The position numbers and the translations under genes are program-made. A stretch of DNA of 49,074 nt from SAR324 cluster bacterium (GTDB lineage Bacteria; SAR324; XYD2-FULL-50-16): the NCBI GenBank assembly GCA_028280735.1, contig JANQLH010000059.1:1-49074 (forward strand), given 5' to 3'. The notes below the pieces were generated by a model. That model was given only the letters and a program-made list of their open reading frames with translations. It was not told the origin of the DNA and made no database searches. Below, in pieces: positions 110 to 9,861 of the stretch; position 1 is the first letter of the stretch; each line of letters begins with the position of its first letter.

Positions 110-445
110 ATGAAATATAGATTTTTAATGATTTGTTTTATAATGTTTTTAATTAGTGCCTGTAGTGAACCCTTACCTGAGGATAAATTATCATACGTAG
201 GTGAATGGCAGAGCAAAGAAATGGGACTAATCATTTTACAAGACGGTACTGTTGCTTATAAGAGGCTAAAGGGAGGTGGTTCAACTTCAGTTAATGGACC
301 AATAAAAGAATTCAATGGTAATGACTTTAAAGTTGGCATTTTGTTTTTGACAACTACATTTAAGGTTTCCGAACCACCTCATGAAATCAATGGTTTATGG
401 CAAATGGTTGTAGACGGGGTTCGTTTAACCAAAGTTCGTGATTAG
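110..445 (+). CDS. Small putative lipoprotein, unknown function; possible integron cassette gene
   Basis: 111 aa; signal peptide with lipobox-like ISAC; followed within 10 nt by an attC-like site. Confidence 0.6.
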   Translation: MKYRFLMICFIMFLISACSEPLPEDKLSYVGEWQSKEMGLIILQDGTVAYKRLKGGGSTSVNGPIKEFNGNDFKVGILFLTTTFKVSEPPHEINGLWQMVVDGVRLTKVRD

Positions 446-454
446 AATAAAAAA

Positions 455-518
455 TTCTAACGAATAAGGATAGATTGTGTGAGCGCAGCGAGCCACAATC
501 TGAAGCCCGGCGTTGGGC
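455..518 (+). other. attC-like integron recombination site 1
   Basis: TTCTAAC (455-461) ... GTTGGGC (512-518); internal inverted repeat AGATTGTG (472-479)/CACAATCT (494-501); strongly similar to the site at 1231-1293. Confidence 0.65.
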
Positions 519-534
519 TGATATCGGTCTAAAT

Positions 535-771
535 TTACAGCTCATCACCTGGAATCGGAGGGCGATTTGGAACCTTATGAAGTATTCTCTTAAACTCCTT
601 TTTGTCAGCTTTTTTAGCTCTTTGCATCAAATATTCTTCGGTCATTATAGCGGAGATTTTTTCAGACACTGCTGAGGATATAAATTGATTGATTGATACA
701 CCCTCTTGCTGTGCAATCTCTTTTATATGCCGATGAAGGGAGTTTGGGAGTCTCAAACTTAAAGCACTCAT
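535..771 (-). CDS. Antitoxin, RHH/HicB-like fold (toxin-antitoxin partner of downstream PIN protein)
   Basis: 78 aa, 'LSLRLPNSLHRHIKEIAQQEGVSINQFISSAVSEKI' RHH-type motif; 4-nt overlap with the PIN-domain ORF. Confidence 0.8.
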   Translation of the reverse strand: MSALSLRLPNSLHRHIKEIAQQEGVSINQFISSAVSEKISAIMTEEYLMQRAKKADKKEFKRILHKVPNRPPIPGDEL

Positions 772-1187
772 TTTAGATTCTCCAACAAAGATTTTGGTGT
801 GATTGCTTTTATTCCAAATTGTTCGATACGACGAAAATCTTTCAGATTGTGAGTCACAATCGTTTTAACCTGCGAAGCTACTGCAAGTTCTAGAACATGG
901 TCATTTTTTGGATCTTTCAGATACGGACGCCAAAGAAAATATACTTTTTGAAATTCACTGAAATAGCATAAATTATCCAAGATCGTTTCAATTTCTTGAT
1001 TTGATAAAGCTAAGTCTGCCTGTTTCCGTTTTAGTATGTCTTCGTATTCAAAAAGCAAGGTTGTTGAAAGTATGGGTAAAAAAGTCTTATTATCAATTCC
1101 TTGAAGTACTCGATACGAGGCCCCTACGGAAGAGTGAAGACCTGCATATAGTACATTTGTGTCAAGAACAATCTTTTGTGATTTCAT
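768..1187 (-). CDS. Putative toxin, PIN family (COG1569-like)
   Basis: 139 aa, 'KIVLDTNVLYAGL...LPILSTTLLFEYEDIL...DHVLELAVASQVKTIVTHNLKDF' PIN acidic motifs. Confidence 0.85.
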   Translation of the reverse strand: MKSQKIVLDTNVLYAGLHSSVGASYRVLQGIDNKTFLPILSTTLLFEYEDILKRKQADLALSNQEIETILDNLCYFSEFQKVYFLWRPYLKDPKNDHVLELAVASQVKTIVTHNLKDFRRIEQFGIKAITPKSLLENLK

Positions 1188-1230
1188 GGTCCACAGATAC
1201 CAAATACGGTATCATTGCGTCAAATAAGAA

Positions 1231-1293
1231 GCCCAACGAATAAGGTTAGATTGTTTGAGCGGAGCGAACCAGAATCTGAAGCGTTTGTTGGAC
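1231..1293 (+). other. attC-like integron recombination site 2
   Basis: GCCCAAC (1231-1237) ... GTTGGAC (1287-1293); imperfect internal hairpin with bulge; shares CGAATAAGGnTAGATTGTnTGAGCGnAGCGAnCCAnAATCTGAAGC with site 1. Confidence 0.65.
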
Positions 1294-1364
1294 AAGCCCG
1301 TCCCGCGTTATCGACGCTGGCCTATTCCTATTAGAAAATATCGATTTGGAGAGTGTTGGGGAAT

Positions 1365-1397
1365 CAGCCAATGATTGCTAAATTCATTGGCTGTTTT
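1365..1397 (+). terminator. Terminator-like hairpin
   Basis: CAGCCAATGA-(9 nt)-TCATTGGCTG followed by TTTT. Confidence 0.45.
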
Positions 1398-1564
1398 GAT
1401 GAGGAGTTCTTCAGGGTCCACTTTTTATAGTCATTTCCGGTTTTTTGGGAATGGTAGAATCCTCTTTTGGGCTCACGACTCCCTTCCTGCTCAAGTCAGG
1501 TTTTTTTTAACCCGGAAGGTCAATGAACCTGTGACAGGGGGATTCCTTTCTATGCTGAATTCAG

Positions 1565-1906
1565 CTTTTTAAGGAAACTCACCGGATCTATCTTGAGGAT
1601 AATCTGCAGAAGCCTGATCAATTGTTTGCTTGAGCCATGTATTAACAGTCTGCCGTTGGTTACGGCCGGGGCGAAACCCATAGCTGTGGTCGGAAAAGCT
1701 TGAGGCAAGAATAGGTTCCAGGAGAATTTTTCGATTTCCCAAACCACAAGCCCCCCTTTGCAGGATTCGATCAGTGATTTTAAACGTTCCGGCGTTGCCT
1801 TAATGTTTTTATGAATGATAACCTTGCCCAGCTGATCAAGCACACAGACATACATTTTTTTGGCGCGCAAATCGATTCCACAATAGTAACGGTGTTGGTT
1901 CGCCGC
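1565..1906 (-). pseudogene. Composite mobile-element relic: IS110-family transposase N-terminus joined to an out-of-frame group II intron reverse-transcriptase fragment
   Basis: Minus strand frame A: 'HRYYCGIDLRAKKMYVCVLDQLGKVIIHKNIKATPERLKSLIESCKGGLVVWEIEKF' (IS110 DEDD N-term). Frame B: 'EPILASSFSDHSYGFRPGRNQRQTVNTWLKQTIDQASADYPQDRSGEFP*' (group II RT 'YGFRPGR' motif). Confidence 0.7.
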
Positions 1907-2019
1907 TCATATAAAATGTCATGGCCTACTCCTTTAATGAAATATGAAAATTTTGCCAAAATTGAATCATAATGAGTTCCAGGAGAAGGCTCAAACAGTA
2001 TCAAGGATTTAAGGAATAA

Positions 2020-4290: not shown

Positions 4291-4321
4291 GGGGACGTAG
4301 TTGAAATGTTGACATTTGAGT
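4291..4321 (+). repeat. 31-bp terminal inverted repeat, left
   Basis: GGGGACGTAGTTGAAATGTTGACATTTGAGT; exact reverse complement at 4745-4775. Confidence 0.95.
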
Positions 4322-4416
4322 ATTGAGATAATTTTATCCCCTGTGTTTTTGGATACATACGAATTGCGCATTAAAGCCCTAGAACCTGTAAATCCTGCCT
4401 TCATGTTCCGGTTAGC

Positions 4417-4740
4417 CTACTCCATGTGATGGCAAAAGGTATCCAGCCACAACCTAACCGGAGGGATTCTTTTAAGGAAAGCAGGAGCATGCCTCAGCAA
4501 AAAACACCTAATACCTTGGATCAATTCACGATTGGCCTCTAGAACTATGTTTAATCTATCACCAACCGATGTAAAAAGCTCCGGTACGCAACGCTTCCTC
4601 AAACGAGCCATATCCATACTCTGACGCTGAAAGGGAATGCTGTAGTCCGCTATCTTACTATCAGTAAATCTCCCGCCAGCAGGCTGGTAACAGACTTCTA
4701 ACTTGACGACATCTACACAGCTTTCAAAAAAACATGACAT
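4417..4740 (-). CDS. Hypothetical 107-aa protein inside the TIR element
   Basis: ORF begins just inside the right TIR; no recognised domain. Confidence 0.3.
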   Translation of the reverse strand: MSCFFESCVDVVKLEVCYQPAGGRFTDSKIADYSIPFQRQSMDMARLRKRCVPELFTSVGDRLNIVLEANRELIQGIRCFLLRHAPAFLKRIPPVRLWLDTFCHHME

Positions 4741-4744
4741 CGAA

Positions 4745-4775
4745 ACTCAAATGTCAACATTTCAACTACGTCCCC
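4745..4775 (-). repeat. 31-bp terminal inverted repeat, right
   Basis: ACTCAAATGTCAACATTTCAACTACGTCCCC, exact reverse complement of 4291-4321. Confidence 0.95.
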
Positions 4776-9412: not shown

Positions 9413-9492
9413 ATAAACTCAACCCTCATCCGTAAATTGCCATTGAATGCTGGATTAATATATACAATTTGAAATCCTCTTTGCCTACACCC

Positions 9493-9542
9493 TTTTAACC
9501 TGCGGCTTTCGGAGTGCTGCAGAGGAAGCCGTCAGGTTGAAA
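9493..9542. other. Strong imperfect hairpin, possibly attC-like or terminator, overlapping the higA 3' end
   Basis: TTTTAACCTG-CGGCTTTC ... GGAAGCCG-T-CAGGTTGAAA complementary arms; GTTGGAT at 9548-9554. Confidence 0.4.
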
Positions 9543-9861
9543 CATTTGTTGGATTTTCAGTCTGTTGCAATGGAGTAATTGTTTTAAGGATTTCTTTTTC
9601 TGTGCTTGAAGCTTTGTATAAATCCCATCGTTGTTGTAGATTCATCCAGAAATCTTCAGAATTGCCAAAAAACCTAGCGAGTCTCAATGCCGTGCTAGGA
9701 GTTATACCGCGTTTTTGGCTGATTATTTCATTTATCCTTTGGAAAGGCACATGAATAGCCTTTGCCAAATCTCTTTGGGTTAGATCCAAAGGTACCAGGA
9801 ATTCTTCTAAAAGCATTTCTCCTGGATGAGTCGGTAGTCTGTGTGTTGGAATTCGCAACAT
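9532..9861 (-). CDS. higA: HigA/VapI-family addiction-module antitoxin
   Basis: 109 aa; 'THPGEMLLEEFLVPLDLTQRDLAKAIHVPFQRINEIISQKRGITPSTALRLARFFGNSEDFWMNLQ' HTH-XRE signature. Confidence 0.9.
   Translation of the reverse strand: MLRIPTHRLPTHPGEMLLEEFLVPLDLTQRDLAKAIHVPFQRINEIISQKRGITPSTALRLARFFGNSEDFWMNLQQRWDLYKASSTEKEILKTITPLQQTENPTNVST

Follow-up and report, generated by a model that had tools for sequence, protein, structure and literature searches.

Two attC-like sites beside a PIN/RHH cassette in a SAR324 bacterium as probable remains of an attC-targeting IS91-family transposon

Two attC-like sites lie near one end of a contig from a SAR324 cluster bacterium, with a toxin-antitoxin gene pair between them. 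Are these ordinary attCs of a chromosomal integron, or does their likeness to attCs have another source? The window, meaning the whole stretch of DNA that we analyzed, is the entire 49,074-nt contig C503 of a 511-contig MAG that is 88% complete. Because the window is a complete contig, the left edge of the array is a contig edge. We find it very probable that the sites are what is left of an IS91-family (HUH, two-tyrosine) transposon with integron attC sites as its specific insertion target. In the window this assignment rests on a 275-nt end and the hairpin, and the transposase is absent there.

The PIN/RHH cassette and its genomic setting

The initial annotation described two near-identical attC-like sites at the edge of a cassette array or CALIN. 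Both sites are attC-shaped and lie where it placed them (Table 1), and by folding a bulged stem can form in each, both copies being individually degraded. The sites are identical at 50 of 64 positions in a global alignment and share a local match of 89.6% identity over 48 nt (E ~4e-13), which bears out "near-identical". Their R boxes are present (R'' TTCTAAC and GCCCAAC; R' GTTGGGC and GTTGGAC) and partly complementary, and the R'' of site 1 begins with T, deviating from RYYYAAC.

Only the PIN/RHH genes lie between the sites, on the opposite strand, as their ORFs and Pfam domains confirm. Domains and layout point to a putative type II toxin-antitoxin pair, overlapping and with the toxin gene first. 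The GTTGGGC and GCCCAAC boxes that face each other across the pair are complementary at 7 of 7 positions, which fits both ends of one cassette. Judged by its sequence, the unit does look like an integron cassette whose genes are reversed. The small upstream ORF, which has no Pfam match, was kept as belonging to the preceding cassette.

Table 1. Features at the left end of the window
Feature	Position	Strand	Remarks
Small putative lipoprotein gene	110..445	+	Last gene of the preceding cassette; 5' boundary beyond the contig start
Site 1	455-518		64 nt, TTCTAAC...GTTGGGC; R'' + transposon-type hairpin + GCCCGGC + R'
oriIS-type hairpin GAATAAGGATAGATTGTG..CACAATCTGAA	462..505	+	Element body lost; aligned with 38 other copies
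PIN/RHH cassette start GTTGGGC (G|TTGGGC)	512..518	+	Exact reverse complement of 1231-1237
Cassette body TTGGGC...GCCCAA	513..1236	+	Boundary match; genes reversed inside
RHH putative antitoxin, second gene	535..771	-	HicB/CopG/TacA-type Pfam matches; 4-nt overlap with the PIN gene
PIN_3 putative toxin, first gene	768..1187	-	Pfam E 2e-20
Site 2	1231-1293		63 nt, GCCCAAC...GTTGGAC
GCCCAAC, R'' of the PIN/RHH cassette and probable insertion target of the element	1231..1237	+	
Truncated IS91-family element, oriIS-proximal non-coding part	1235..1510	+	Transposase and recombinase missing
oriIS end of the IS91-family element: hairpin + GTTTGTTGGAC	1238..1293	+	

The rest of the genome fits an integron setting. 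A whole-genome search with model R1 was too insensitive for this genome and a regex-plus-fold attC scan too unspecific. Canonical attCs are found on contig C52 (L016, 14569-14628; 44.5 bits) and contig C46 (L020, 3048-3126; 42.3 bits). Both are also detected by R3, an attC model built from array attCs only, none adjoining elements, of whose training set L020 is a member. No IntI scores above the cut-off in the 88% complete genome, in line with the earlier remark that no integrase is visible. A candidate IntI on contig C492 was rejected, as it lacks the IntI-specific stretch and lies beside a different IS91 transposase. IntI is present in the close relatives G002, G006 and G009 and broken in G001. 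The G001 gene (C88:81220-82163) contains an interrupting TAG and is divided between two frames, and G002, of the same genus, has an intact IntI (448.8 bits). The matching cassette boxes, the canonical attCs and the IntI genes of relatives make a cassette array fragment or CALIN a reasonable reading of the context, and this part of the earlier description stands. The identity of both sites as ordinary array attCs is not supported, since the 56-nt core of each site is the terminal hairpin (oriIS) of an IS91-family transposon and lies directly after a cassette R''.

Several other features of the window were recorded. At 4291-4335 and 4731-4775 a 45-nt inverted repeat (87%) encloses 395 nt and resembles a separate MITE; a GGGACGTAGTTGAAATGTTGACATTTGA-like sequence seems to occur on C46 as well. 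Frame-shifted fragments at 1550-2004 (minus strand) resemble by eye the N-terminus of an IS110-type transposase; the ORF at 1550-1870 has no Pfam match. We discarded the idea, prompted by an IS110-like fragment apparent behind site 2, that an IS110/IS1111-attC element carried the attC-like site, as the gene found repeatedly downstream of the site is IS91. A weak R3 match at 9482-9554 (minus strand; 20.1 bits, E 0.025 in 241 kb) is probably due to chance.

The hairpin and its IS91-family element

The initial annotation held that wide occurrence as an ordinary dispersed repeat outside gene boundaries would speak against attC sites. The core is indeed dispersed. It lies at five other clear places in its own genome (twice on C158, once each on C52, C46 and C300), and the pattern AACGAATAAGGNTAGATTGTNTG, scanned across 84,980 species genomes, gave at least 117 loci. 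These copies are mostly at gene ends, and many of those are real cassette ends. The hosts belong to several phyla and include Methylobacter, Methylomonas, Desulfobacterota, Scalindua, Mariprofundus and Melioribacteraceae, with the qualification that most copies come from MAGs and that odd hosts may be binning errors. The site pattern was absent from viral contigs, and the site had no DNA match in phages and plasmids.

Sequence to the left of AAC varies between copies, and at least 100 nt to its right is conserved, with the consensus AAC|GAATAAGGTTAGATTGTGTGAG..GAACCACAATCTGAACCGTTTGTTGGACAAGCCCGG N30 ATATAGAAAATATCTTTTTGG. A logo of 122 left flanks reads G/C/(C or A)/T, then AAC. Behind the hairpin, on the other strand, an IS91 transposase is encoded at about 20 of the 66 sites with enough sequence. 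It matches NF033538 with 365 bits (cut-off 125) and has Y2_Tnp and Zn_Tnp_IS91 domains and HPHVH and YLGRY motifs. The full element of about 2.4 kb is arranged as GAATAAGG-hairpin-GTTTGTTGGACAAGCCC, transposase (minus strand), tyrosine recombinase (minus strand) and AGCGGCTTCGTCCAAC. This far end lies 2408-2453 nt from the hairpin end; the two ends are dissimilar and each is conserved. AGCGGCTTCGTCCAAC had more than 60 matches in 23 of 38 genomes, and a reversed control had none.

Homology in the window continues past site 2 to 1510, into the non-coding end of the transposon, a feature beyond the initial annotation. The stretch 1235-1510 is 65% identical to the full copy L137 over 280 nt (E 1.7e-22). 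There was no Tnp match downstream of this remnant, and the only IS91 transposase in the genome is a distant one (34%).

The hairpin itself follows the R-spacer-L plan of attCs. Across 39 copies the L stem is 97% paired, AAC and GTT are invariant and the spacer columns are unpaired. One pair covaries strongly (U-A/A-U, 25/11), covariation being limited by a search pattern that fixed the left arm. A single unpaired base lies on the 3' arm in the direction of the genes. In an attC the extrahelical bases belong by definition to the R''-L'' arm; when they are inverted, recombination shifts to the opposite strand and to R'' (Bouvier 2009, PMC2727003). Read in the gene direction, the present sites are therefore inverted, and taking them for canonical attCs in that direction is rejected on polarity.

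Variant and shortened copies occur as well. Three identical 444-nt non-autonomous copies (L146, L153, L155) have both element ends and lie at different non-attC sites. One Methylococcaceae MAG (G099; L201-L220, L236) contains at least 22 right ends, at contig edges or outside attCs, in what appears to be a recent burst. Perfectly palindromic hairpins in which the right arm reads CCTTATTCGTT rather than CCGTTTGTTGG occur at L064, L065, L094, L102 and L117 and also at L126, L142, L154, L157 and L162; copies of this type mostly lack the element body. In hairpin-only copies at L090, L104, L125 and the first hairpin of L076, right-arm CTGAAC or CTGAAAAC is joined directly to the remainder of an attC or to another hairpin, as if the transposase had used an AAC within the hairpin.

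Insertion at attC R'' boxes

If the element targets attCs, its junctions should reveal the host site. Copies are inserted directly after YAAC, typically as gc(c/a)tAAC|AA, which corresponds to the R'' box and opening bases of an attC. In every case the hairpin end adjoins the gene-side R''. The other end, GTCCAAC, supplies a new RYYYAAC, so that the host attC is complete to the right, and on the left the host R'', the hairpin and GTTGGAC make up a second attC-shaped site. When the flanks of full copies are joined, attCs are rebuilt (GCCTAAC|ATTGG..GTTAGGC at L152; also L116 and L076), in at least ten copies overall. Element ends, target, orientation and the rebuilt attC are thus established at the level of sequence comparison.

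Three further analyses agree. Scores for an attC remainder exceeded the 95th percentile of 600 random AAC controls in 16 of 67 right flanks, two of these 16 being the element's own hairpin reversed, and eight scored above all controls. In ten copies (L188, L233, L231, L229, L067, L173, L230, L190, L072 and L226) R3 placed the start of an attC exactly at the element's GTCCAAC, with 15 to 69 bits; it found none at the element end in 21 G099 copies, whose burst lies outside integrons. The reverse complement of the left-flank 7-mer, modelling the 5' boundary of a cassette, was present 120-2500 nt upstream at 42 of 107 loci. With flanks swapped between loci this count was 13.1 +- 3.2, and none of 2000 permutations reached 42.

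At 65 of 113 loci a gene terminates at the site, and TAAC often supplies the stop codon TAA. Contig C21 of G006 has a classical integron with IntI (333 aa) and the hairpin at its far end; the R'' there, GTCTAAC, is complementary to the cassette start GTTAGAC. Right flanks almost never have G directly after AAC. In the R' box of most attCs, AAC is followed by G (PMC2727003), and R'' rather than R' may be targeted because a G after AAC is avoided. Many copies, among them the 444-nt forms and 21 copies in a single MAG, lie outside attCs; the target is therefore a short motif that the attC R'' fits and not the attC itself.

These observations suggest how the window could have arisen. One element would have entered the R'' of the PIN/RHH cassette, between 1237 and 1238, and decayed to about 275 bp. 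A second would have entered the R'' of the lipoprotein cassette and shrunk to the hairpin, the R' GTTGGGC being kept; the details of this deletion are conjectural. The PIN/RHH cassette would thereby be preceded by a hybrid site. By analogy with the HUH family, the transposase would nick single-stranded DNA after the AAC at the hairpin foot and again after GTCCAAC at the far end. Pairing of AAC with GTT across the hairpin foot may help to choose the target.

Alternative explanations and relation to integrons

The tyrosine recombinase of the element invites comparison with IntI. In trees of 38 and 35 recombinases, IntI and all IS91-linked sequences are split from XerC/XerD and from other recombinases encoded by the same genomes (98/99 and 100/99, respectively). 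A sequence labelled "other" that was placed among the IntI/IS91-linked group (L268) adjoins an IS91 transposase. The IS91-linked recombinases lack the IntI-specific insertion and are a possible sister of the integron integrase. A more distant element in Vibrio parahaemolyticus pVb677-tet (L244, 1649-4474) consists of int and an IS91 transposase followed by an RYYYAAC-hairpin. This hairpin runs exactly up to G|TTAGAT, where an arr cassette starts; the attC of that cassette begins with ATCTAAC (R3 27.8 bits).

Could the element then be a true gene cassette with tnp and int that IntI, or an IntI-like recombinase of its own, inserted by a crossover at G|TT? In the reverse reading its order is TTGGAC-int-tnp-GTCCAAC-attC-G|TT, the unpaired base lies on the canonical arm, and its polarity is canonical in the int-tnp direction. 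A circle would have the junction GTCCAAC..GTTGGAC with R boxes matching at 7 of 7 positions; the grouping of the recombinase with IntI and the pVb677-tet junction at the arr cassette also agree with this proposal. Moreover, AAC is present at both ends, and a tyrosine-recombinase crossover at G|TT and a nick after AAC give the same junction. However, the element inserts at the host R'' and in reverse to the array, whereas IntI joins the bottom-strand R' (Bouvier 2009, PMC2727003). More than 100 bases of its end are conserved, targets outside integrons are common and the linked recombinase is without the IntI-specific insertion. We therefore consider a true cassette unlikely.

A less probable proposal, to which we give little credence, is that both sites belong, as ordinary attCs, to a chromosomal integron or CALIN whose attCs are nearly identical, as in Vibrio, and that the IS91 copies merely captured an attC. 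The plan of R'', spacer, L'', L' and R' would agree with this, as would the boundary match of the PIN/RHH cassette, the canonical attCs in the genome and the IntI of relatives. Model R2 also matches the window sites, with 19.6 and 11.9 bits (11.9 for site 1), on the minus strand only, although R2 was trained partly on attCs beside elements and about half of its training set starts with GTCCAAC, like the hairpins. All R2 matches to hairpins are on the reverse strand, opposite to the array attCs of L043, L045 and L016, so that their polarity is contrary to that of the array. With R3 the window sites reached only 8.8 bits (E 0.22) and 4.2 bits, without significance. Moreover, the core also lies outside attCs and, unlike attCs, is nearly invariant across phyla together with more than 100 nt of element sequence. 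Eight other plasmid IS91 elements had no R2 match, indicating that model-scored attC-likeness is not general to IS91; three of these eight have RYYYAAC-stem-GTT hairpins by eye.

A plain dispersed hairpin repeat (MITE or terminator), like an attC by chance, would also be palindromic, dispersed and present outside arrays, but the rebuilt attCs at right junctions, the permutation test, the conserved R''/R' plan and the autonomous copies with an IS91 transposase make it barely credible.

How does the proposed attC-targeting transposon compare with known systems? It shares with integron attCs the R''/R' boxes, unpaired spacer, L stem, one extrahelical base and short loop, but its extrahelical base is on the 3' arm, and its core is conserved across phyla and continues into a transposon. 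IS1111-attC elements of the IS110 family target attC sites, with a DEDD transposase and RNA-guided target choice. They are likewise insertion sequences that target attC, yet their ends differ and the element described here has an IS91 transposase, not a DEDD (IS110) one. Group IIC-attC introns are another class of mobile elements inserting at attC (PMC9229058). These are retroelements with RNA, whereas the window has no Rfam match at gathering thresholds.

The closest comparison is with IS91 and ISCR elements, including ISCR28 and ISShvi3, which have the same IS91-type HUH/Y2 transposase with zinc domain and an oriIS hairpin at an AAC-type target; other IS91 elements, too, commonly have a linked tyrosine recombinase. 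The family described here differs in that its hairpin end has attC architecture and that it inserts at the attC R'', as the rebuilt attCs indicate. ISShvi3 has been found beside an attC (PMC9229058), and sul4 modules have attCs at the ends of ISCR28 (PMC12772301). In the Shewanella study, no IS was reported to interrupt an attC. We found no description in the open-access literature of IS91 elements that target or mimic attC. We propose a new attC-targeting IS91 family with an attC-shaped end, decayed in the window; the findings on ISCR28 and ISShvi3 may have been earlier glimpses of it.

These results have a practical side. When attCs and CALINs are predicted, IS91 ends may be mistaken for attCs of the wrong polarity. 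The attCs of ISCR28-sul4 modules and the IS91-type element at the arr boundary of a Vibrio plasmid suggest relevance to resistance cassettes. Integron biology has no account of how genes acquire an attC or of where IntI came from, and the family offers a concrete, testable link. It inserts at the attC R'', leaves an attC-shaped hairpin behind genes, keeps the host attC intact and has the recombinase nearest to IntI in our trees. A shared origin is a speculative and rather doubtful extension, in which the ancestor of IntI and the first attCs would have come from an IS91-type transposon that had an AAC-hairpin-GTT end and a linked tyrosine recombinase; the copies of today would go on adding attC-shaped hairpins to the ends of genes and would thereby contribute to the making of new cassettes. 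Because its recombinase is a close relative of IntI, the family may bear on gene capture by integrons and on their origin.
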